Virus record (IMG/VR): IMGVR_UViG_3300042562_002373
Coordinates: 1-52,315 of that record
DNA: 52,315 nt
Strand: one strand, 5' to 3'
Source of the DNA: a virus
The notes below the pieces were generated by a model. It made no database searches. It worked only from the letters and a program-made list of their open reading frames with translations, and was not told the origin of the DNA. This document shows, in pieces, positions 6,835 through 42,010 of the stretch. Position 1 is the stretch's first letter. Each line of letters begins with the position of its first letter. A program made the translations under genes and the position numbers.

Positions 6835-6852
6835 AAGCCTCGTTTGAGGCTT
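6835..6852 (-). terminator. Rho-independent terminator
   Basis: 7-bp stem AAGCCTC/GAGGCTT with a 4-base loop, followed on the minus strand by a T run. Ends transcription of the leader-bearing gene 6874-7707. Confidence 0.8.
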
Positions 6853-6873: not shown

Positions 6874-7707
6874 TTAATAATTACTTATGACATCAGCTGC
6901 TGCAATATTAGAACCTTTAATTCCTTTAGCTTGAGCTTTTTTCATTTCTTCATCAAATACTTTACCCCCACCATCTTTAATAAAATTAACAGCATTCTTA
7001 AATGCCCCCAAATCTCTAATACTATTTGCTGGGTTATTATTACCACTATAATCAACATTTAAAACTGGGTTTTCAATAGAATAATCTACTACTTTCTCAC
7101 CATCATGACTAGCATTAGGATTACTTCTATCCTCTTCTCTCAAAGTAATACCAAATGAGTATATTGCGATTTCTTCATCAGTAGGTTTTTCTTTTAATAA
7201 AACACCACCAGAAGCGTTACCTTGTTGGTCTTTTAATTTAGTTACTTTATAACTACGAACACCACCACCATGTGTATTTACTGCTACGCTATCTTTACCA
7301 GCTTTACTATCTACAGTGTATTCAGTACCATGAACATTACTATTCATTGAAAATGTTGGTTCTTCTTGTTTAGAACATGATGTTACTAAACCAGCAAGAC
7401 CGATAGCACACGCAACTACAATATCTTTAACACTTTCATCTAAATTACCATTTGCTTGTATAGTTTTAATTTCTTTACCTTGTGCATTAGTTAAAACTAC
7501 TTTTCCAACTTCACTTGGGTCAATACCAGCTTTTTCTAGCTCATCTGCTAAGTTTGATGGTACATTATCTTCACCTTCAGCAAAAGCAAACTTACCACCC
7601 TTTAACGGTAAAATAGCTTCACTTATTAATCCTTTTGATTGTAAATATCTTTGCTCAACCATTAAATTGGCTCTTTGTATACTTTTCTTTTTATCAATTC
7701 TTCTCAT
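6874..7707 (-). CDS. Leader-bearing probable internal virion protein, 277 aa
   Basis: The first 32 residues (MRRIDKKKSIQRANLMVEQR followed by YLQSKGLISEA) closely match the start of the gene at 49250-50146 (MRRFDKTKNMLNANLLAEQR, YLASKGLIKEV), while the rest of the two proteins differ. I take this as a shared targeting leader, perhaps for packaging inside the capsid. About residues 92-113 are a hydrophobic segment ending in LVTSCSK, which looks like a lipoprotein lipobox placed internally. The C-terminal part is Asn/Gly-rich with many strands and no recognised domain. Late operon. Confidence 0.77.
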   Translation of the reverse strand: MRRIDKKKSIQRANLMVEQRYLQSKGLISEAILPLKGGKFAFAEGEDNVPSNLADELEKAGIDPSEVGKVVLTNAQGKEIKTIQANGNLDESVKDIVVACAIGLAGLVTSCSKQEEPTFSMNSNVHGTEYTVDSKAGKDSVAVNTHGGGVRSYKVTKLKDQQGNASGGVLLKEKPTDEEIAIYSFGITLREEDRSNPNASHDGEKVVDYSIENPVLNVDYSGNNNPANSIRDLGAFKNAVNFIKDGGGKVFDEEMKKAQAKGIKGSNIAAADVISNY

Positions 7708-7709
7708 AA

Positions 7710-8270
7710 TTATTTATTATTAATTTTATCTGAGGCATATTTAACCCCCATTATTGTCCCTATAATTGAGAACGCGTTTGTTAGTAATATACCGAACATA
7801 TTAGACCATACATTACCAATGTCATGTGATTCCTTACTACCACTAATTATAGATGCTCCATACATTAAACTAGTAATAACACCAACACCGATTATAATGT
7901 ACAATGAAACTTTAACTATCACACCAATCAACTCAAATTGAGTTTTTTTCTGTAAGATATCTAAATCATTCTCAGCATTATTCTTAGCTTCTTCAGCTTG
8001 TTTAAGAGCGTCATTTAATTCGTCAGTCATCCTTTCATTCTCTTCACGCCATTGAGTTAACTCAGTGTTCTGCGTTTGAATCTTTTTGGTGATTTCTAGA
8101 CGTTTTCTTCTATTCTCGTTATCTTTTTCTATGCAAGCTTTTAGATAATCAGAAAATTCTTTATTATCTGTCTTAATTAGTTTAACGATATTACCCTCCA
8201 GACCCATTTTCTTCTTATCGTATAGAGCCAACAAGACCTCTATAGTTTTATCGTCAAACTTAACTTCCAT
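7710..8270 (-). CDS. Coiled-coil protein with two C-terminal membrane segments
   Basis: 186 residues. Residues about 45-110 form a strongly charged coiled coil (KKIQTQNTELTQWREENERM). Two hydrophobic segments follow: about 112-140 (IGVIVKVSLYIIIGVGVIT) and 155-178 (MFGILLTNAFSIIGTIMGV). Topology would place the coil in the cytoplasm. Its start codon overlaps the stop of the response-regulator gene by one base (TAATG), so the two are translationally coupled, and the histidine kinase is just upstream. It could be the output of that pathway, a holin-like lysis protein, or a membrane anchor for the regulator; no family recognised. Confidence 0.8.
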   Translation of the reverse strand: MEVKFDDKTIEVLLALYDKKKMGLEGNIVKLIKTDNKEFSDYLKACIEKDNENRRKRLEITKKIQTQNTELTQWREENERMTDELNDALKQAEEAKNNAENDLDILQKKTQFELIGVIVKVSLYIIIGVGVITSLMYGASIISGSKESHDIGNVWSNMFGILLTNAFSIIGTIMGVKYASDKINNK

Positions 8271-8707
8271 TATCTGTATACTTTAAATGGTGCTTTTCTA
8301 TTTTTATAGCTATCATAGTCCTTTCTAAACTCCTCAAGTCTAGGTTCAATTTCATCAGATTTAAGTATCCAAAATTGAGCCCCAGCCTTCATAGCTTTTG
8401 CTTGTTCCTCAGCTTCATTTGAAGAAGATATAATTCCGATAATCACATGATTACCATACTCAAAATTAATTCTTCTTACTAATTCGATTCCATCAAATGC
8501 AGAACCAATTAAATTTAAGTCAACGAAAACACATTCTGGTTTATCGTCTACATTATTACTTTCAAACCAAGCTTTGAATAATTTTTCTGCCTCATCTGCT
8601 GATGAAACACTTTGAAGTGAAAGGGTGATGTCTAAGAGACTGCAAGCGTCTTCAAAAACTAGATGAAATAAATCTTCATCATCTACTAATAGTATTGAAT
8701 CTATCAT
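8270..8707 (-). CDS. Single-domain response regulator (CheY-like receiver)
   Basis: 145 residues forming only a receiver domain; no DNA-binding output domain. The acidic pocket is D9-D10 in LLVDDED, the phospho-acceptor is D63 in CVFVDLNL, the switch Ser is at 94-96 in IISSSN, and the conserved Lys is K116 in FWILKSDE. It lies 36 bases after the histidine-kinase gene and overlaps the following membrane-protein gene by one base. As a stand-alone receiver it should act by protein contact, most simply with the coiled-coil membrane protein next door. Phage-encoded response regulators are unusual. Confidence 0.9.
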   Translation of the reverse strand: MIDSILLVDDEDLFHLVFEDACSLLDITLSLQSVSSADEAEKLFKAWFESNNVDDKPECVFVDLNLIGSAFDGIELVRRINFEYGNHVIIGIISSSNEAEEQAKAMKAGAQFWILKSDEIEPRLEEFRKDYDSYKNRKAPFKVYR

Positions 8708-8743: not shown

Positions 8744-10918
8744 TTATTTAATCATTATTAATATTCTGGTTCCAACCTCGTTTTTTTCACAAGTAATATT
8801 GAATCCATGCTCTTTAAGTATTGCTATACATATGTTTAAGCCCAATCCAGAGCCACTTTCTTTTTGATTTTCTTTTCTAGTATATGGTTCAGATAATTTA
8901 TTAAAATCATCTTGAGACATACCTCTACCATTATCTTGGATAGCAATATGTGAGTCATCTTCCATAAAAATCGCAACTACTTTTGAGTCAGAATCATTAT
9001 ATTTAAGACCATTACGAATTAAATTATCAATTGCTGTACAAAATAAAGGTTCGTTAACATCTAATGTTGGTAACCAATCAATCACAACTTGACTTGAATA
9101 TGCTGTTGATGATAAATATGAATTTAGAATATCTCTTAAATTTAAATGTTCTTTAGTTAATACAACATCTTCTTTAACTAAGTTAGTGAATTCATAAACT
9201 CCTTTGTAAACTTTTTGTGTATGTTTAAGACCTTCCTTAAGCATTTTTAATGGTGCTTCTAATTTCAAACGTTCAATGTCTTCTTTCTTTAATCTTCGTT
9301 CTAACGAACTAATTCCTCTTGGAATGTATGTATTTATTCCAGAATGCATATCATGTCTTAGAATCTTCGCAGCGTGTTCTAAATATGTATTTTTCTTTTC
9401 AATCTCTCTCTTTTGTTCATAAGAAATGGTAACATCTGTTGCAATTTTCATAATACGATAAACCTTACCGTCAACACCAACAATTGGGTTGTAAGTCGCT
9501 TGCAAATAAACTAAAGAACCATCTTTTTTTGTTCTAACAATTTCACCTGAAAATGATGAACCTTCTTTTAATTTTTCCCAAAAAAGATGATAATCGTCAC
9601 TTTTAGAATATTCTTTATCTACAAAAATTCTATGATGACCTCCAACTATTTCCTCACATGATGAATATCCCATAGTTTCTATGAATAAATCATTAGCAAA
9701 AATGATATTACCTTCTAAATCAAATTCAATAACTGCATTAGATTTATTTATAGCACTCATTCTATTATGAATTTCAACTTCCTTTTTTTTAAGTTCAGTA
9801 ACGTCTTGACGTATAGACATGAATCCTTCAAGTTTACCATCATCATCAAAACTAGCTTTTACAGAAGTATCTAAATAGTAAAGGTCTCCGTCTTTTTTCT
9901 TGTTGGTAACCACTTCATTCCATATCTTTTTATCCTTTACAACTGTTTTGTGCATATTATCCCAATATTCTGGTGGTATTGCAATAAATGGTACTGTTCC
10001 TAAATCTTTAGAATTTGAACTAGAGTTTACTATATTATGGTCTTTACCAATAGCTTCTTCTAATGACCATCCAGAAACATCAGTAAATTTCTGATTAATA
10101 TAAGTTATCTTTCCACGCTTATCAGCTTTACTAACCAATACAGATGAGTTCACAAAATGCTGAAACTCAGCTAATTCATTCTTAAGTTCGTTACCTTCTT
10201 GAACTGAATAAGCAAATGAGTATAATGACGATAACATTTCAGCAAAAGTAACTTCCACTTTATGCCATTCTCTAACTGTATAGCTTTCAATACAGATTAC
10301 ACCAATTACTTCACCTTTATAAACGATTGGAACGTCAAGCATTGCTTTAATACCTAATGGGTCTGAATAAGTTTCTTTAAAACATTGTGTTGATGGGTGT
10401 AAATTAACATCATTTGCAATTATAATCGGATTTGTTTTAAGACCACTGAAATATGGTTTATAATCTTTTTCAAAAATCTTAATACCATTAACCCATTCAC
10501 CAGTTTTTTTCTCATATAATTGTTCACATACAATACTTGTTTTTTTCTGGTTGTATAACCAAATAGAACATCTATCAGCACATATACTATTGGTAACTTC
10601 TTTAGTTAATAATTTTGCCCCATCAGTAACATTACCTTCATAGAATAATGGGTTATGAGTTTGAGAAATTAATGTTTCATTTAAATTTCTAGCGTAATAG
10701 TTTAGTTTAACGGATTCTTTGTTTTTATTTAAATAATCTTTAATCATTGTACCAAATAATGGTATAAGGGTTATAAAACATAAAAATTCAGTCCATCTAG
10801 TAATGACACATGATGGTACATAACCAGTTAATACACATAATTTTACAATTAAAAATATCGCCATAACTATTACTGCGAATACAAAACTAATAATTGAGCT
10901 CTTTTTAAGGTTAATCAT
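8744..10918 (-). CDS. Membrane-bound sensor histidine kinase (GAF-PAS-PAS-HisKA-HATPase)
   Basis: 724 residues from ATG 10918, chosen because it sits 7 bases after a late-type element. Two membrane segments (about 9-31 and 43-60) are followed by a GAF-like domain (about 85-240), two PAS domains (about 250-375 and 385-500), a phospho-acceptor helix with H522 in ILRHDMHSG, and an ATPase domain with N box (DNLIRNGLKYND, 631-642), G1 DNGRGM (662-667) and G2 GSGLGL (689-694). All key residues are present, so the enzyme should be active. The adjacent receiver is the likely partner. Ligand unknown. The domain set is that of bacterial kinases, so acquisition from a host is likely, but the base composition is like its neighbours. 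Confidence 0.92.
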   Translation of the reverse strand: MINLKKSSIISFVFAVIVMAIFLIVKLCVLTGYVPSCVITRWTEFLCFITLIPLFGTMIKDYLNKNKESVKLNYYARNLNETLISQTHNPLFYEGNVTDGAKLLTKEVTNSICADRCSIWLYNQKKTSIVCEQLYEKKTGEWVNGIKIFEKDYKPYFSGLKTNPIIIANDVNLHPSTQCFKETYSDPLGIKAMLDVPIVYKGEVIGVICIESYTVREWHKVEVTFAEMLSSLYSFAYSVQEGNELKNELAEFQHFVNSSVLVSKADKRGKITYINQKFTDVSGWSLEEAIGKDHNIVNSSSNSKDLGTVPFIAIPPEYWDNMHKTVVKDKKIWNEVVTNKKKDGDLYYLDTSVKASFDDDGKLEGFMSIRQDVTELKKKEVEIHNRMSAINKSNAVIEFDLEGNIIFANDLFIETMGYSSCEEIVGGHHRIFVDKEYSKSDDYHLFWEKLKEGSSFSGEIVRTKKDGSLVYLQATYNPIVGVDGKVYRIMKIATDVTISYEQKREIEKKNTYLEHAAKILRHDMHSGINTYIPRGISSLERRLKKEDIERLKLEAPLKMLKEGLKHTQKVYKGVYEFTNLVKEDVVLTKEHLNLRDILNSYLSSTAYSSQVVIDWLPTLDVNEPLFCTAIDNLIRNGLKYNDSDSKVVAIFMEDDSHIAIQDNGRGMSQDDFNKLSEPYTRKENQKESGSGLGLNICIAILKEHGFNITCEKNEVGTRILIMIK

Positions 10919-10955: not shown

Positions 10956-10983
10956 AAACCCCTAGGAAATTCCATAGGGGTTT
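10956..10983 (-). terminator. Rho-independent terminator
   Basis: 9-bp stem AAACCCCTA/TAGGGGTTT followed on the minus strand by TTTTCTTATTTT. It insulates the kinase operon from the YceI-like gene upstream. Confidence 0.85.
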
Positions 10984-11006: not shown

Positions 11007-11531
11007 TTACGCTTTCATCATTTGGATACTAACGATTAATTTTACGTCATCTGATACTAAAATACCGCCTTTCTCACCAACAGCATTAAACGATAAACCA
11101 TACTCAGAACGCTTAATAACACCTTCCAATTCAAAACCATATTTAGTCTGTCCATAAGCATCAACATCGTTACCATTATAAGTACCGCTTAATGTAATTG
11201 GTAATTCAATATCACGAATAGTTAATAATCCATTAACATCATAATTACCATTGTCTAACTTATTAATTTCAGTTGATTTAAATGTAATTTTAGGGTAGTT
11301 CTCAGCTGAAAAGAAATCATCTGATTTTAAATGATTATCTCTATCTGTGATATTAGTTGTTACTGAATCAACATCCGCTTCAAATGTTAATGTAGCGTCA
11401 GTGAAATCTTCTAACTCTGCTTCCATAGTTGCATCAAATTTAGTGAATCTACCGTTAACAGTAGAAATCATTAAATGTTTCACCTTAAACTCAATGTCTG
11501 AGTGTAATGGGTCAATTTTAAATGTACTCAT
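11007..11531 (-). CDS. YceI-like lipocalin-fold protein
   Basis: 174 residues matching the YceI family along nearly the whole length: FKIDPLHSDIEFKVKHLMIS at the start, FTKFDATMEAELEDFTDA, the conserved NHLKSDDFFSAENYPKITF and the C-terminal VGEKGGILVSDDVKLIV. YceI proteins bind isoprenoid-like or amide lipids in a beta barrel. This copy lacks a signal peptide, so it should be cytoplasmic. It is the last gene of a three-gene operon behind a host-type promoter at 12218-12248, which suggests early or middle expression. Role in a phage is unclear. Confidence 0.9.
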   Translation of the reverse strand: MSTFKIDPLHSDIEFKVKHLMISTVNGRFTKFDATMEAELEDFTDATLTFEADVDSVTTNITDRDNHLKSDDFFSAENYPKITFKSTEINKLDNGNYDVNGLLTIRDIELPITLSGTYNGNDVDAYGQTKYGFELEGVIKRSEYGLSFNAVGEKGGILVSDDVKLIVSIQMMKA

Positions 11532-12300: not shown

Positions 12301-14811
12301 ATGAATAGAGAAATTGTACCTAAGGTTAAACTTATAATAAACAACGCAATGAATGAAGCCAAAAGTAATGAGGATGTCCTTGTTAGACCTGAGCATATTT
12401 TAATAGCGGTATTATTGGATGATAGTAACATCTGTGTTAACGCATTTAAAAAATTAGGTGCGGATGTGAATGTATTACATGATAAGTTAAGTGAGCACAT
12501 CAGAGAAAAAAACTTAACACCTAGTGTTACTGGTAGTAAAAGAATTAGATTACCATTCAGTGATGAAATGAAATGGGTGATGAATAAAGTTGATAAAGAA
12601 TCTGAGTTATTGAATGATGCTCACATAGATTTAGAACATGTTACTTTATCGATTTTAACCCATAAAAAGTTGCGTATTGTTCAAATATTGACTAGCTTTG
12701 GTATAAATTACGAAAATTTTAAAAAAGTTATAATTAATATGAGAGGTAAATTAGATGAAAAAGATATCCCAAAGAATATGTTAGGGGATGACGATGAAAA
12801 CGTTTTTGGTGAAGAATTTGGTGATAAATCAAAGAAAACAACTGTTAAACGTGGTAAGGCAAGTAAAACACCAGTATTAGATAATTTCTGTGCTGACGTT
12901 ACTAAAGCTGTAGAAGAAGGGAATGTTGACCCTATTATTGGTAGAGAGAAAGAGATTAAACGTGTATCTCAAATTTTATCAAGAAGAAAAAAGAATAACC
13001 CAGTATTGATTGGTGAACCTGGTGTTGGTAAAACAGCTATCATTGAAGGTTTAGCTCAATTAATTGTTGATGGTAAAGCACCTAGAATGTTATTAGAAAA
13101 AAGAATCTATTCTTTAGACTTAGCATCGATTGTTGCTGGTACAAAATATCGTGGTCAATTCGAAGAACGTATGAAAGCGATATTAGATGAATTAAAAGCG
13201 AATAAAGACGTTATCTTATTCATTGATGAGTTACATACCATTGTTGGTGCTGGAAACTCCTCAGGCTCTTTAGATGCATCTAATATTTTCAAACCAGCAT
13301 TGGCTAGGGGTGAAATACAAATCATTGGTGCTACAACACTTGACGAATTTAGAGAGAACGTAGAAAAAGATGGTGCATTGACTAGACGTTTCCAACAAGT
13401 ATTGGTTGAAGAACCAAGTTTAGAGGAAACTATTACTATGCTTAAAAGTATTAGAGGTAAATATGAAAATCACCATAAGGTTACTTATACTGATGAAGCT
13501 ATTGAAGAATGTGTTAAATTATCTGATAGATATATCACTGATAGAGCTATGCCAGATAAAGCTATCGATGTTTTAGATGAAGCTGGTGCTAGTACAAATA
13601 TTGAAGTTGAGATTCCAGAAAAAGTAAAAACATTGGAAGCTAAGAAAGCTGAAATTCAAACTAAGAAAATGGATGTGGTTTCAAAACAAAAATATGAAGA
13701 AGCTGCTAAGTTAAGAGATGAGGAAAGAAAAATCGATACTGATTTAGCTAAGGCTAAAGAAGAATGGGTTAAAAATCTTGATGAGAAAAGAACTATTGTT
13801 GATGTTGATTTAATTTCTGATGTTGTATCTATGATGACTGGTATTCCAGTAAATAAGATTTCAACTCAAGAGAATAAACGATTAATGAATATGGATAAAG
13901 AATTGCTTGGTAAAGTAATTGGTCAAGATGATGCAATCGTTAAAGTATCCAAAGCTATCAAACGTAGTCGTTTAGGTATCAAAGATAAAAACAAACCATC
14001 ATCATTTATATTCTTAGGACCTACTGGTGTTGGTAAAACTCACTTATCTAAAGTACTAGCTGAATATGTATATGGTGATAAGGATGCATTGATTAGAGTG
14101 GATATGTCTGAGTTCATGGAGAAACATTCTGTGTCTAGATTGATTGGTCCACCACCAGGATATGTTGGTTATGAAGAAGGTGGACAATTAACTGAGAAAG
14201 TTAGAAGAAAACCATATTCAATTATCTTATTAGATGAAATTGAAAAAGGTCATGACGATGTATTCAACTTACTATTACAAGTATTAGATGAAGGTCATTT
14301 AACTGATGGTTTAGGTCGTAAGATAAATTTCAAAAATACTATTATCATTATGACATCAAATGTTGGTGTTAGAGAGTTAACTAGTTTCGGTAAGAACATT
14401 GGATTTGAAACTGACGCTGCAATTGTAAATGAACAAGAGAAAGCTCGTTCAATTATTGAGAAAGCATTGAAAAAGAAATTCAAACCAGAGTTCCTTAACC
14501 GTATTGATGAAACTATTATCTTTAACAGTCTTAAAGCAGATGATATCAATGTAATTATCCATAACGAATTGGATAAATTAAAAGCTAGAGTTAAAGAGAT
14601 TGGTTACGAAATCAAGATTAATAAATCAGCTGTTGATTATGTTGCTAAACAAGGTTATGATGAAGCATATGGTGCCAGACCACTTACTAGAGCGATTCAA
14701 AGATACATTGAAGACCCAGTAACTGATGAAATCCTTAATGGTAACTTTAAAGAAGGTGACACCATTAAAATCACATACGATAAGAAAGAAGATAAAATTA
14801 TTTTATCTTAA
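12301..14811 (+). CDS. clpC: ClpC/ClpA-type AAA+ unfoldase
   Basis: 836 residues with the full two-ring layout: N-terminal double Clp repeat (about 1-145), first AAA+ module (P-loop GEPGVGKT 238-245, Walker B ILFIDELH with D309-E310), a short middle domain with a UVR-like stretch (KQKYEEAAKLRDEER), and second AAA+ module (GPTGVGKT 573-580, ILLDEIEK, arginine-finger region PEFLNRIDE). KNIGFETD (I700-G701-F702) falls where ClpA and ClpC carry the IGL/VGF loop that docks on ClpP; ClpB lacks this. No clpP is visible here, so it may recruit host ClpP to alter proteolysis. Host-type promoter upstream, terminator downstream, single-gene transcript. A ClpB-like disaggregase role is less likely because of the short middle domain. 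Confidence 0.93.
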   Translation: MNREIVPKVKLIINNAMNEAKSNEDVLVRPEHILIAVLLDDSNICVNAFKKLGADVNVLHDKLSEHIREKNLTPSVTGSKRIRLPFSDEMKWVMNKVDKESELLNDAHIDLEHVTLSILTHKKLRIVQILTSFGINYENFKKVIINMRGKLDEKDIPKNMLGDDDENVFGEEFGDKSKKTTVKRGKASKTPVLDNFCADVTKAVEEGNVDPIIGREKEIKRVSQILSRRKKNNPVLIGEPGVGKTAIIEGLAQLIVDGKAPRMLLEKRIYSLDLASIVAGTKYRGQFEERMKAILDELKANKDVILFIDELHTIVGAGNSSGSLDASNIFKPALARGEIQIIGATTLDEFRENVEKDGALTRRFQQVLVEEPSLEETITMLKSIRGKYENHHKVTYTDEAIEECVKLSDRYITDRAMPDKAIDVLDEAGASTNIEVEIPEKVKTLEAKKAEIQTKKMDVVSKQKYEEAAKLRDEERKIDTDLAKAKEEWVKNLDEKRTIVDVDLISDVVSMMTGIPVNKISTQENKRLMNMDKELLGKVIGQDDAIVKVSKAIKRSRLGIKDKNKPSSFIFLGPTGVGKTHLSKVLAEYVYGDKDALIRVDMSEFMEKHSVSRLIGPPPGYVGYEEGGQLTEKVRRKPYSIILLDEIEKGHDDVFNLLLQVLDEGHLTDGLGRKINFKNTIIIMTSNVGVRELTSFGKNIGFETDAAIVNEQEKARSIIEKALKKKFKPEFLNRIDETIIFNSLKADDINVIIHNELDKLKARVKEIGYEIKINKSAVDYVAKQGYDEAYGARPLTRAIQRYIEDPVTDEILNGNFKEGDTIKITYDKKEDKIILS

Positions 14812-31841: not shown

Positions 31842-31914
31842 TGACATGTAGCTCAGTTGGAAGAGCACTACTATTTTAATGTAGAGGTCGGTAGTTCGAA
31901 TCTACTCATGTTAT
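31842..31914 (+). tRNA. tRNA-Lys (UUU)
   Basis: Acceptor TGACATG/CATGTTA, D-arm GCTCAGTTGGAAGAGC, anticodon loop ATTTTAA with anticodon TTT, T-arm GGTAG-TTCGAAT-CTACT. The overall pattern resembles bacterial tRNA-Lys. U31-U39 do not pair and position 32 is A, small oddities. CCA is not encoded. Confidence 0.88.
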
Positions 31915-32010
31915 CAAAGGTGGGAGTAATTAGCCCAACCCTAACAAGAATGTCTATCATATAGCTTAAAGAGATTTGGTACCACTAATTTCTGATGATA
32001 ATTCTTGATT

Positions 32011-32303: not shown

Positions 32304-32377
32304 GGCCTCATAGCTTAATCGTATAAAGCAACGCACTTCTAATGCGTAGAGTGAAGGTTAGAATCCTTCTGAGGTCA
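32304..32377 (+). tRNA. tRNA-Arg (UCU)
   Basis: Acceptor GGCCTCA/TGAGGTC, D-arm GCTTAATCGTATAAAGC, anticodon stem ACGCA/TGCGT with loop CTTCTAA (anticodon TCT), T-arm GAAGG-TTAGAAT-CCTTC, discriminator A. All stems pair. Decodes AGA, the Arg codon most used in this window's genes. CCA not encoded; a T8 tract follows. Confidence 0.92.
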
Positions 32378-32405
32378 CTTTTTTTTAATTTAATCTTTAA
32401 AAAAT

Positions 32406-34757: not shown

Positions 34758-35564
34758 TTATGGTTCATATCTACTTGTACTATCCTTACCAAATAAATGT
34801 TTACCAATTTGTTTAGTAGATGTCCAACTTTCTGAACCCTCACCCCATTTAGGTGTAACTTTTGATGGGTTATAATAACTAGTAGCACCATTAGTATTAT
34901 CTTCTATTGTATTAATATACTTTGCGATGTTAACTGCTTTTTTCCAAACTTCGTCATTATTAGGGTAAGCGTCTTCAACATATCTTTTATGTACATCTTG
35001 AATTTTATCACCATCAATAGTATGTGAATTCCACATAGAAAATTGTTTTCTTTCTAATGCAATTTGAGCAACACTTTTACCAGTAGCCTTAGCTCTGTTC
35101 TTTAATACATTTGCTACAGCCCTCATGCCAATTCCTCCCTCACCACCAGCTTCACCAACTAAAGTAGTAGCAATAATAAAGTTGCTAGTTGATAATGGTT
35201 TTTCTATAGGTATTATTTTATCAGCAATCTGTTCAATATCTTGTTTAATTACACTTTTAGTCGCTTCTAAAGGTTTTTCTTTATCAATACCACCATTAAG
35301 ACCAATTAAACCTATAACACTCGCTATAGCAGTTGCTCTTAATTTCTTTTTAACATCTGAAGACGAAGAATCATACTTATCTTTAATTTTATTAAAGTAT
35401 TCAGTTGCCTTATCTTTAATAGATGTTTTATTATCTATATTCCATTCATATTCGTTTTCACCAGTTTTATTACCAGTAAAAACTTCATTAAGCATTTGCT
35501 TTGCGTAAACCTTTATAAATAAATCCTCTTTTAATTGCTCTAATATCAATGCTTTAGTACTCAT
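34758..35564 (-). CDS. Leader-bearing SleB-type cell-wall hydrolase
   Basis: 268 residues from ATG 35564, ten bases from a late element. Leader MSTKALILEQLKEDLFIKVY, then a charged helical region, a hydrophobic stretch (RATAIASVIGLIGLNGG, about 76-92), and a C-terminal SleB/Hydrolase_2 domain: TTLVGEAGGEGGIGMRAVAN with E138, NVLKNRA, FSMWNS, NGATSYYNPSK. Such enzymes cut peptidoglycan. With the leader and late promoter, the likely place is inside the virion, acting at DNA entry rather than at lysis. Confidence 0.88.
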   Translation of the reverse strand: MSTKALILEQLKEDLFIKVYAKQMLNEVFTGNKTGENEYEWNIDNKTSIKDKATEYFNKIKDKYDSSSSDVKKKLRATAIASVIGLIGLNGGIDKEKPLEATKSVIKQDIEQIADKIIPIEKPLSTSNFIIATTLVGEAGGEGGIGMRAVANVLKNRAKATGKSVAQIALERKQFSMWNSHTIDGDKIQDVHKRYVEDAYPNNDEVWKKAVNIAKYINTIEDNTNGATSYYNPSKVTPKWGEGSESWTSTKQIGKHLFGKDSTSRYEP

Positions 35565-35573
35565 AAAATCTTT

Positions 35574-35588
35574 TTTATTAATAAATAT
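35574..35588 (-). promoter_or_regulatory. Putative phage late promoter
   Basis: Exact ATATTTATTAATAAA on the minus strand, nine bases before the hydrolase ATG. Lies back to back with the host-type promoter at 35609. Confidence 0.62.
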
Positions 35589-35608
35589 CGATTTTTTAGT
35601 AAAAAAGT

Positions 35609-35640
35609 TTGCATTAACCGAATTAAAATACCTATATTTG
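35609..35640 (+). promoter_or_regulatory. Host-type promoter (NAD genes)
   Basis: TTTG ending at 35611, 21 bases, TATATTTG; 18 bases before the ATG at 35659. Confidence 0.75.
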
Positions 35641-35658
35641 TCAAAAGAAATTATACAT

Positions 35659-36510
35659 ATGAGAGCAGTTATTAATTTAGACGAAAACTTTAAACCATTT
35701 GGTAAAGAATTTACCGAGTTGGAATACCAGAAGTTTAGTTTCCCAAGTGGTTGCGAACCACACATTAAAATTATTGAAAAGAATTGGATGATAGGTGGTA
35801 ATGAAGTTATTATTACGACTAGAATTAAATCTTCAGAAGATTTGATGATTTTATTATTAGCTACCGATGCTTTAAAACGATTAGGGTTTACATATATTAA
35901 ACTATTTATTCCTTACCTACCGTTTGCTAGACAAGACCGCGTTATGGTTGGTGGTGAACCTTTATCAATTAAAGTTTTAGCAAACATTATTAATTCACAA
36001 GAATATAGTAAAGTTGCGGTATATGACGTACACTCTGAAGTGTCTTTAGCGTTAATTAATAATTGTGACCCAGTTAGTAATCATAACATTGTTAAACAAA
36101 TCTTAGCTGATAAGAAAGATTACTACATTGTATCACCAGATGCTGGCGCATATAAGAAAATCTTCAAAGCTGCACAATTCGTTGGTTATACAGATGCTAT
36201 CGTATTATGTAATAAAATCAGAGATGTAAAAACTGGTCAAATCTTAAATATGACTTGTGATGTAAATGATTTACATGGTAAAGATGTTTATATCATTGAT
36301 GATATTTGTGATGGTGGTGGTACATTCATTGGTTTAGCTGATAAACTTAAAGAGAATAATGCTGGTAACGTTAATTTAATTGTATCACATGGTATTTTCT
36401 CTAAAGGTATTGAGGCCTTACATAATATTGACCACATATACACTACTGACTCATTCCAAGACTTGGAACCAAATAATAAGTTAACTCAAATTAAATTAGA
36501 ATTCAAATAA
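35659..36510 (+). CDS. Ribose-phosphate pyrophosphokinase-like enzyme (Prs or Adps)
   Basis: 283 residues from ATG 35659, placed by the promoter. Prs landmarks: IPYLPFARQDRV (84-95), VYDVHSE metal site (121-127), VSPDAGAYKK (158-167) and the PRPP-binding loop VYIIDDICDGGGTF (210-223). It is about 30 residues shorter than usual Prs (near 315). The NadV-like gene follows 11 bases later. Either the pair makes PRPP and then NMN, or, as in the recently described NARP1 phage pathway, it makes ADPR-pyrophosphate for direct NAD rebuilding. The sequence alone does not decide. Confidence 0.9.
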   Translation: MRAVINLDENFKPFGKEFTELEYQKFSFPSGCEPHIKIIEKNWMIGGNEVIITTRIKSSEDLMILLLATDALKRLGFTYIKLFIPYLPFARQDRVMVGGEPLSIKVLANIINSQEYSKVAVYDVHSEVSLALINNCDPVSNHNIVKQILADKKDYYIVSPDAGAYKKIFKAAQFVGYTDAIVLCNKIRDVKTGQILNMTCDVNDLHGKDVYIIDDICDGGGTFIGLADKLKENNAGNVNLIVSHGIFSKGIEALHNIDHIYTTDSFQDLEPNNKLTQIKLEFK

Positions 36511-36521
36511 AAACAAATAAT

Positions 36522-38219
36522 ATGAATAGTTACAGACAAAATCCGCTATTGATGACTGATGGTTATAAAACCAGTCACCATGCGATGTATCCAGAGGGTA
36601 CGACTGAGGTATATTCGAATTACACATTAAGAAATGTGAAGTATATGCCTAAACAAGCTAAAAAAATTGTAGTTGCTGGTGTGCAATATACAGTTAAGTC
36701 AATCCATGACATGTATGCTAATGATTTCTTTGCTAGACCTAAAGCTAAAGTTTGTGGTGAAGCTAAAGAATACTTATCATCGTATTTAGGAACTGACTAT
36801 GATGTATCTCACTTTGAAGCATTACACGATTTAGGTTACTTACCTATTGAGATTAAAGCATTAGACGAAGGAACTATCATTGATGAGAAAATCCCAGTAT
36901 TTACAATTAAGAATACTCATCCAGATTTCTTTTGGTTACCTAATTTCTTAGAAACATTGATTTCTTCTTTGATTTGGAAACCAGTTCATTCAGCTTCATT
37001 AGCTTATGGTTATAAAAACCTTTTATTATCACATGCTAGAAAAACTGATAAAGAAAATTTAGGATTTGTTGATTTCCAAGGACATGATTTCTCATTCAGA
37101 GGAATGCAACACCCAGAGTCAGCAATTAGTTCTGGTCTAGGTTTCTTAACTTCATTCTCTGGTACTGATACAATTCCAGCATTATTAGCTGCGAACTATT
37201 ACTACGGAACTAAGAATGTAGGTTTCAGTGTTCCAGCTTCTGAACATGCTGTTATGACTGCATACGGTAAAGAAGATGAGATTGGTGCTTTCAGAAGATT
37301 GATGCAACAATACCCAACTGGTATCTTATCAGTAGTATCTGATTCATTTGACTTATGGAAAGTATGTACTGAATACATTACTGAACTTAAAGAAGAAATT
37401 CTTTCTCGTGATGGTAAATTAGTATTACGCCCAGATTCTGGTGACCCAGTTGATATCTTATGTGGTTCAGTTAGTTTAAACTATACTTCATTAGACCAAG
37501 CTAAACATGATTTTAAAAATGAGTTATATGAGTCTACAGTTCATGGTGAAGATGAATACACTATCGATACAACTCGTATTGTTAATGTTAATGGTACATA
37601 TTACAAATTAACTGAAGACACTACTTGGAATCGTTATGATAAACAATATTATTATGTTGACGAATTATATATCGATGCTGAAGAAGTTGAATCTAAACCA
37701 GAATATGTTGGTGTAATCGAATTGTTATGGAATACATTTGGTGGTACTACTAATGGTCAAGGTTACAAATTATTAGATTCTCATATCGGTGCAATCTATG
37801 GTGATTCAATTACATTAGATAGAGCTGATGCTATTTGTACTAGATTAGCTGCAAAAGGTTTCGCATCTACTAACGTAGTATTAGGTATTGGTTCTTACTC
37901 TATGGGTTATGCGACAAGAGATAACCAAGGTGGTGCAGTTAAAGCTACTCACGTAGTAGTTAATGGTGTTGATAGAGATATCTTCAAAGACCCAGTAACT
38001 GATGATGGGACCAAAAAATCAGCAAGAGGTTACTTATATGTTTACGCTAAAGATAGTTTAACATATGCTCTTAAAGATAAATGTTCTCGTGATTTAGAGG
38101 AAAATGGTTTATTAACTACTGTTTACAAAAATGGTGACTTAGTTAAAACTACGACTCTGACTGAGATTAGAGAAAAAATAAATAATTATTCAAAATTAGT
38201 TCAAGAAACTGTTGCGTAA
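36522..38219 (+). CDS. nadV: Nicotinamide phosphoribosyltransferase-like enzyme (NadV or Namat)
   Basis: 565 residues. Matches the NadV/NAMPT family: GYKTSHHAMYPEGTTEVYSN at the start, FRGMQHPESA (192-201), catalytic-region SVPASEHAVM with H242, LRPDSGDPVD (302-311), GYKLLDSHIGAIYGD and FKDPVTDDGTKKSARGY. Joins nicotinamide to a pyrophosphorylated ribose. It is about 75 residues longer than usual because of an insert near residues 315-396, rich in Tyr, Asp and Glu. Co-transcribed with the Prs-like gene. A promoter for the next gene lies in its 3' end. Confidence 0.93.
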   Translation: MNSYRQNPLLMTDGYKTSHHAMYPEGTTEVYSNYTLRNVKYMPKQAKKIVVAGVQYTVKSIHDMYANDFFARPKAKVCGEAKEYLSSYLGTDYDVSHFEALHDLGYLPIEIKALDEGTIIDEKIPVFTIKNTHPDFFWLPNFLETLISSLIWKPVHSASLAYGYKNLLLSHARKTDKENLGFVDFQGHDFSFRGMQHPESAISSGLGFLTSFSGTDTIPALLAANYYYGTKNVGFSVPASEHAVMTAYGKEDEIGAFRRLMQQYPTGILSVVSDSFDLWKVCTEYITELKEEILSRDGKLVLRPDSGDPVDILCGSVSLNYTSLDQAKHDFKNELYESTVHGEDEYTIDTTRIVNVNGTYYKLTEDTTWNRYDKQYYYVDELYIDAEEVESKPEYVGVIELLWNTFGGTTNGQGYKLLDSHIGAIYGDSITLDRADAICTRLAAKGFASTNVVLGIGSYSMGYATRDNQGGAVKATHVVVNGVDRDIFKDPVTDDGTKKSARGYLYVYAKDSLTYALKDKCSRDLEENGLLTTVYKNGDLVKTTTLTEIREKINNYSKLVQETVA

Positions 38220-40403: not shown

Positions 40404-40700
40404 ATGAAAGATTTATACGCAAGTTTAAACGAAAATAATCCAGCACATAAAATGGTGATGAATATTAATAAGAAAAATGAAGAGTTATATGGTCCATATC
40501 ATAGTGAATGTGGATTGTTCCAAACTTTTTGTCATTGCGAGTTCCCTGAAATAAAATCCAATGAATTATCTGAAGCTAATAAAGAGATTTATTCAGATAT
40601 CGAGACTCTTATTATGCATTGGTGTAATGATGGTACCAAAACTGCTGGTACATTAACTAGAAGAATAATGTATGAATTAAATAAAAAAAATATATTATGA
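40404..40700 (+). CDS. Hypothetical protein, 98 aa
   Basis: ATG at 40404 rather than the TTG at 40392. MKDLYASLNENNPAHKMVMN; contains three Cys/His-rich points (HSECGLFQTFCHCEF) that may bind zinc. Overlaps thyA by four bases (ATGA). Confidence 0.72.
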   Translation: MKDLYASLNENNPAHKMVMNINKKNEELYGPYHSECGLFQTFCHCEFPEIKSNELSEANKEIYSDIETLIMHWCNDGTKTAGTLTRRIMYELNKKNIL

Positions 40701-42010
40701 ATAATTTAGATAAACAATACACAGCATTACTACAAGATATACTTGATAATGGTCATCAGAAAGGTGACCGAACTGGAACTGGAACTATATCAGTATTTGG
40801 TAGACAGATTCGCCACAACATGAAAGATGGGTTTCCGCTTATCACTACAAAGAAAATGTACTGGAGTGGCATCGTAACCGAGTTAATTTGGTTCTTGCGT
40901 GGTGATACAAACATTAAATTCCTTGTGGATAATAATTGTCATATTTGGGATGGAGATGCCTATAAGAATTATTGTAATGATAAGAATACAGTAGGCCCAT
41001 TAACAATGGCACAATTTATTGAAGAGATAAAAACGAATGACGAGTTTGCTAATAAATGGGGTGAATTAGGTCCCGTGTACGGAAAGCAATGGAGAGAATG
41101 GACTTACTTAACTAAAGAACAAAAACAAGATGTTGATGGAATAGATGAAGAAATATGTGGAGCTGATATGTGGGATGGCATTAGACATTATAGAACATTT
41201 GACCAAATCGCAAACCTAATCCATGACCTTAAAACAAACCCAGATTCAAGACGTTTGATGGTCAACGCTTGGAATGTTGGAGAATTGGATTCAATGGTAC
41301 TTCCACCTTGCCATTATGGATTTCAAGTTTATACAAGAGAGTTGAGTGGTGAAGAAAGATGGGATTTATTAAAGAAGAATGTTGGTAAAGAATTATTTGA
41401 TTCTTGGGTATCTGAAATAGTTCCGTTCGGTGGTGGATTAAGTGAATACTTACAATCATATAATATCCCAACCAGAGCAATCTCATTAATGTGGAATCAA
41501 CGTTCAGTAGATACATTCTTAGGTTTACCATTCAATATTGCATCTTATGGATTGTTATTGGAAATCATTGCCAAAGCAGTAAATATGGTTCCTGAAGAAT
41601 TAATAGGAAACTTAGGTGATACTCATCTATATTCAAATCATATTGAACAAGCCAAAGAACAAATTGGTATGGAATTGAGTAATGAAGAACGTTATAATAT
41701 TTGGTTCACTAATAATTATGAGACTGGAATGGAAAGATTCTTTGACCCAAATAATTTACCAGATTTTGAAGATTCATATTACGAACCAACACCTAAACGA
41801 ACTAGAGAACCATATCCATTACCAACATTAAATATCAACACAGAGTTCTGGCAATATGAAGGTGGAGAATGTGGAATAGGACCATTGGATGCAACTGGTG
41901 TAATTAAAGCATTTAGTGATGATAATTTCTGTAGATGCTTATTGGAAGAAGATATTCAATTAGGTAACTACCAATCACACCCATCTATTAAGGCTCCATT
42001 GTCAAATTAA
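40697..42010 (+). CDS. thyA: Thymidylate synthase, enlarged
   Basis: 437 residues. Makes dTMP from dUMP with methylenetetrahydrofolate. Motifs in order: GDRTGTGTISVFGRQIRHNM, TELIWFLRGDTN, LGPVYGKQWREW, DSRRLMVNAWNVGELDSM, the nucleophile C205 in LPPCHYGFQVY, RSVDTFLGLPFNIASYGLLL and GDTHLYSNHIEQ. Usual length is 264-320; extra segments lie before YRTFDQI, after VYTREL (about residues 215-250) and at the C-terminus (about 60 residues). All catalytic parts are present. Confidence 0.95.
   Translation: MNNLDKQYTALLQDILDNGHQKGDRTGTGTISVFGRQIRHNMKDGFPLITTKKMYWSGIVTELIWFLRGDTNIKFLVDNNCHIWDGDAYKNYCNDKNTVGPLTMAQFIEEIKTNDEFANKWGELGPVYGKQWREWTYLTKEQKQDVDGIDEEICGADMWDGIRHYRTFDQIANLIHDLKTNPDSRRLMVNAWNVGELDSMVLPPCHYGFQVYTRELSGEERWDLLKKNVGKELFDSWVSEIVPFGGGLSEYLQSYNIPTRAISLMWNQRSVDTFLGLPFNIASYGLLLEIIAKAVNMVPEELIGNLGDTHLYSNHIEQAKEQIGMELSNEERYNIWFTNNYETGMERFFDPNNLPDFEDSYYEPTPKRTREPYPLPTLNINTEFWQYEGGECGIGPLDATGVIKAFSDDNFCRCLLEEDIQLGNYQSHPSIKAPLSN

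Follow-up and report, generated by a model that had tools for sequence, protein, structure and literature searches.

We describe a three-gene cassette, encoding a membrane sensor histidine kinase (HK), a stand-alone receiver (RR) and a coiled-coil membrane protein with two transmembrane (TM) segments (CC), that is conserved as a unit with its domains and catalytic residues intact, is under purifying selection, belongs to a family found near-exclusively in viruses, and in relatives of the phage studied here is linked to lysis genes. We consider it somewhat more probable than otherwise that this trio is a phage-encoded phosphorelay controlling host lysis at the membrane, the signal passing from kinase to receiver to CC. 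The window, meaning the whole stretch of DNA analysed, is a 52 kb IMG/VR virus record (IMGVR_UViG_3300042562_002373, positions 1 to 52,315), and the features on which the argument draws are these:

6835..6852, (-): terminator 3' of the 277-aa ORF
6874..7707, (-): 277-aa ORF, starting 2 nt after CC
7710..8270, (-): CC, two-TM coiled-coil membrane protein, 186 aa, the proposed output
7731..7808, (-): CC TM2, 92% column identity, with the strip N157-G160-T164-S168-G171/T172-G175
8270..8707, (-): RR, stand-alone receiver, 145 aa, Response_reg, predicted phosphoacceptor D63
8744..10918, (-): HK, membrane sensor histidine kinase, 724 aa, with Pfam GAF, two PAS and HATPase_c
8753..9043, (-): HK HATPase_c domain, E=3.8e-15
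9284..9394, (-): HK DHp motif KNTYLEHAAKILRHDMHSGINTYIPRG with H522, near-invariant in 98 HKs
9428..9736, (-): HK PAS2, residues 395-497
9788..10135, (-): HK PAS1, residues 262-377; its closest solved PAS domains are the FAD-type domains of MmoS, Aer and NifL
10217..10609, (-): HK GAF domain, residues 104-234, E=2.8e-12
10739..10897, (-): HK two N-terminal TM segments, residues about 8-60, from the window sequence and family hydropathy
10956..10983, (-): hairpin terminator between YceI and HK, -16.2 kcal/mol, z -2.4
11007-11531, (-): YceI-family periplasmic lipid-binding protein, adjoining HK
34758..35765, (-): Hydrolase_2 endolysin candidate, about 24 kb from the trio

The initial annotation had proposed a complete sensor kinase with two membrane segments, a GAF domain, two PAS domains, H522 and the N, G1 and G2 boxes, all of which were found, H522 and the boxes where it placed them. 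Besides H522, the window HK carries an N box from residue 632, a DNGRG box and GSGLGL from residue 689. When 98 HKs were aligned, H522, N632, N641, D662, N663, G664, G666 and G691 were invariant, HATPase_c was present in 98/98, and the DHp motif LEHAAKILRHDMHSGINTYIPRG and the catalytic residues were invariant or nearly so; Pfam HisKA gives no match to the DHp of HK. The sensor regions of the same 98 kinases span about 100 to 550 residues with 0 to 2 TM segments, GAF occurring in 34 and PAS in about 77. The receiver was likewise correctly recognised and numbered: RR matches Response_reg (Pfam, E=9.3e-10), its D9/D10, D63, S94-96 and K116 are invariant in a 38-row alignment, and conservation extends over most of its length, with 77 of 145 positions invariant in the 38 sequences. 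It has no DNA-binding domain. The annotation's reading of a complete pathway with a membrane-protein output instead of a DNA-binding one is supported by these sequence features, if the RR-CC step runs as we suppose.

CC has the coiled coil and the two membrane helices originally ascribed to it, with TM segments at about 113-134 and 155-178. The distribution of charge gives an N-in/C-in topology, that is, a two-TM hairpin, and the predicted model consists of a single long helix (37-142) running through TM1 and then TM2, a rod plus a hairpin. The pTM of this model is only 0.34, a low value of the kind that a long rod would be expected to give. Conservation is highest in TM2 (92%, vs 56% in the N-terminal domain and 54% in the loop), where the strip residues are small or polar. 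The receiver and this membrane segment are fixed while the sensors vary freely, which suggests that TM2 either associates with itself or binds a partner that does not vary. A structure search with the model gave one real match, an uncharacterised phage protein of 50% identity. No Pfam, PHROG or NCBIfam holin match was found for CC, and it falls in no holin or antiholin family; a known family was rejected, the matches being only chance-level coiled-coil ones.

In the window, RR and CC are coupled by a TAATG common to both genes, as had been noted. The 277-aa ORF, whose conservation is limited to near relatives, may be a fourth gene of the transcription unit, since only 2 nt separate it from CC and the next terminator (6835-6852) lies beyond it. 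On the upstream side, the insulating terminator that had been proposed was found as the hairpin between YceI and HK. The HK ORF is open beyond 10918, up to an ATG at 10975; because this ATG falls within the hairpin, 10918 is the likelier start. The late-type promoter placed before HK was not confirmed: the YceI-HK gap contains no TATAAATA and no sigma70-like site, and no T4-type late promoter was found there. Near the YceI-HK region the phage encodes a ClpA/ClpC-like AAA+ chaperone (12301-14811, (+)), 98% identical in L002, and DnaK-like genes adjoin the trio in some relatives (L004, L040, L041). Elsewhere the window holds a nicotinamide phosphoribosyltransferase gene for NAD salvage (36522-38219, (+)), tRNA-Lys (TTT) (31842-31915, (+)) and tRNA-Arg (TCT) (32304-32378, (+)), and a 437-aa thymidylate synthase (40697-42010, (+)) in which some 95 extra residues stretch the match to the profile, possibly an inserted element or intein. 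The style of the signal peptides and the nearest solved receiver hint at a Bacteroidota host.

Scans of viral contigs returned 375 relatives of RR and at least 512 of CC. The initial annotation had staked its reading on the same three-gene order recurring in related phages, and 105 distinct CC proteins from IMG/VR contigs were examined for it. RR is the gene immediately upstream of 94 of them and lies one gene away from 5; the contigs of the other 6 stop short of it. In 87 of these loci HK in turn immediately precedes RR, and most of the few in which it does not adjoin RR are explained by the start codon chosen or by a truncated contig. In most loci the ends of RR and CC overlap, by 4 or 1 nt, and cognate kinase and receiver share one gene cluster. 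No large record (109-304 kb) has more than one Pfam-level receiver, and its kinase is single or one of a tandem pair; two of the records give an additional distant HATPase match below cut-off, and six have no Pfam-level receiver match, the receivers of these relatives being divergent and G018 being cut off before its receiver. With synonymous sites near saturation, dN/dS is 0.09 for RR, 0.15 for the HK core and 0.22 for CC, which shows purifying selection on the trio. Downstream of the trio in L150 and L099 there are runs of proteins with the N-terminus MKITRRQLRxLI in common, possibly a targeting leader.

Histidine kinases are overwhelmingly bacterial, and one could therefore ask whether a bacterial two-component system had been placed on a mis-binned contig. 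We regard this as vanishingly improbable. The cassette occurs in hundreds of IMG/VR contigs, the longest of 304 kb, and most of the large records carry Gp23, a capsid gene of T4 type, whereas a scan of 84,980 species genomes of bacteria and archaea found CC once, on a MAG contig. This viral spread and the lone MAG match contradict a bacterial origin of the trio, which is a conserved cassette of a near-exclusively viral family. Among 50,697 deposited phage records there was no homologue of RR or CC, and HK gave only generic PAS/HATPase matches.

When the neighbours of the trio were clustered, endolysins topped the non-core families. A GH19/PG-binding endolysin lies nearby in 48/105 loci, a YkuD-like protein with an HxxG...SxGC motif in 24/105 and a phage lysozyme in 11/105; M15 peptidase, Amidase_2, SLT, Phage_holin_10, Phage_holin_4_1 and DUF5675 are further neighbours. 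The gene next after CC is a GH19 endolysin in 20 loci and the YkuD-like protein in 9. As a whole-record control we took 21 large records (109-304 kb), 14 of which encode GH19, and each of these 14 has a GH19 copy at a distance of 1.6-4.0 kb from the ATPase domain of the kinase. Multiplied naively, with no correction for shared ancestry, the probabilities give a value below 1e-20. By comparison, Gp23 lies within 15 kb of GH19 in none of the eight GH19 records with a Gp23 match. The lysozyme is about 2.6 kb from the trio in G001 and 25 kb away in G009. Mapped onto the tree of the trio, endolysin type shows at least 15 changes, and switches between having and lacking a lysis neighbour number at least 10; the link is therefore more than frozen gene order: it has been kept through replacement of the lysis enzymes themselves. 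Neighbourhood is nonetheless an association, and the loci are related by descent.

Gating of lysis, as originally hypothesised, thus draws its support from the neighbourhoods of relatives, while the window itself gives no such link. The only endolysin found there is the Hydrolase_2 candidate, and no lysis gene adjoins the trio in its closest relatives (L002/L083, L003). An automatic pass found no lysis family in 19 of 64 well-flanked loci, among which an amidase (L146) and an SLT enzyme (L139) were then read by eye. In the family the lysis association is well supported, whereas for the window's phage it is unproven. These loci leave room for a role in superinfection exclusion or envelope remodelling, in which RR and CC would alter the inner membrane so that incoming DNA is shut out or the infected cell stays intact, lysis genes lying near merely through shared late expression. 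A two-TM membrane output would suit such a role, about 30% of well-flanked loci, the window included, have no adjacent lysis gene, and YceI directly precedes HK both in the window and in L069. We nevertheless consider it unlikely: lysis genes are the commonest non-core neighbours, the link persists while non-homologous lysis enzymes are swapped, and the recurrent neighbour families include no recognisable exclusion gene.

A sharper version of the lysis reading would make CC itself the holin, a two-TM pore gated by phosphorylation. Its hairpin with N-in/C-in topology and small-residue strip in TM2 would fit, and an endolysin is often the gene after CC in relatives, though not in the window. Against this stand the curated holins Phage_holin_10 and Phage_holin_4_1 that adjoin CC in some relatives, the 106-residue helix feeding TM1, which is not holin-like, and the missing holin family match; we consider this version unlikely too. 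Since separate holins adjoin CC in some relatives, CC need not be the pore for the trio to control lysis. Less likely again is that CC is a mere membrane anchor or adaptor and the true target of RR a host protein, the cassette rewiring host signalling. Stand-alone receivers often act on separate partners, and the number of invariant positions in RR exceeds the apparent need of two phage partners. However, translation couples RR to CC, the two genes are hardly ever found separated, and TM2, the most conserved part of CC, is kept beyond an anchor's needs.

As to the cue, the window HK lacks any periplasmic domain of appreciable size, and the nearest solved structures to its PAS1 are 3ewk, which we take to be MmoS, 8dik (Aer) and 2gj3, presumably NifL; its GAF domain matched no solved structure. 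The PAS domains of MmoS, Aer and NifL bind FAD and report redox state. On both grounds a redox or energy cue seems likelier than direct sensing of a superinfecting phage, and holin triggering responds to membrane de-energisation, which would make such a cue for HK a reasonable proposal. In some relatives a single receiver serves two kinases (L027:4166-7996; similarly in L020, L032, L034, L036, L042 and L073), and most of these variant operons carry, between the kinase genes, a secreted coiled-coil protein with YPIQT.

We suggest that the phosphorelay would work as follows. HK would read an internal cue, in the window probably redox or energy state through GAF and PAS, and in relatives many other cues through other sensors and sometimes two kinases, and would phosphorylate the single RR on D63. 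RR, which has no DNA-binding domain, would presumably act on the co-translated CC. The latter is predicted to combine a nearly invariant TM2 with a helical rod that lies in the cytoplasm and extends into TM1. CC may then either allow or prevent permeabilisation of the membrane or the triggering of holins, which would tie the release of endolysin to the signal. Both directions of control, trigger or brake, fit this scheme, as do several signals, and the window's phage may work alike despite its distant endolysin. Hundreds of uncultured T4-like viruses of bacteria carry the cassette, usually beside host-bursting genes, and therefore probably time the killing of the host by means of a bacterial-style sensing circuit.

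The lysis clocks known from phages work through the accumulation of holin and the binding of antiholin. If our reading is correct, a large uncultured T4-like group reads the state of the cell and decides the time of lysis, and the trio offers a testable effector (CC), a defined, predicted phosphosite (D63) and a naturally occurring range of exchangeable sensors. We put at just short of even the chance that a complete virus-owned phosphorelay, its receiver acting directly on a dedicated membrane protein, times lysis post-translationally with interchangeable sensors and lysis enzymes. Our literature search found no paper on complete phage-encoded two-component systems tied to lysis, and such signal-gated post-translational lysis would be a principle of lysis control described in none of the cultured phages we found.

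Several known systems resemble parts of the trio. Bacterial two-component systems that pair a histidine kinase with a single-domain CheY-like receiver have the PAS/GAF domains, the DHp His-Asp motif and the N, G1 and G2 boxes in common with HK, and D9/D10, D63, S94-96 and K116 in common with RR. In contrast, the trio family is viral, its DHp is not matched by Pfam HisKA, and its genetically fixed membrane-protein output is in no family library. The phage phiCDHM1 also encodes a histidine kinase, AgrC, within a quorum-sensing agr locus in which no response regulator was found (PMC3901668), whereas the trio includes a receiver. The cRec domains of jumbo phages have a receiver-related fold, as RR does, and are described as never occurring with a histidine kinase (PMC7824862, PMC9503650); because RR occurs with one, we rejected its identity as a cRec domain. 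LytST provides a bacterial precedent for two-component control tied to holin-like membrane proteins, in this case LrgA/B (PMC3507848), but it acts transcriptionally, and RR has no DNA-binding domain. A Phage_holin_T search of the records gave no match anywhere, controls included. In T4 lysis inhibition the holin T is held by the antiholins RI and RIII through direct binding, with no phosphorelay (PMC11413866, PMC8385771). Like the trio, this system is found in T4-type phages, and its lysis-timing sensing step is the role that we propose for the trio.
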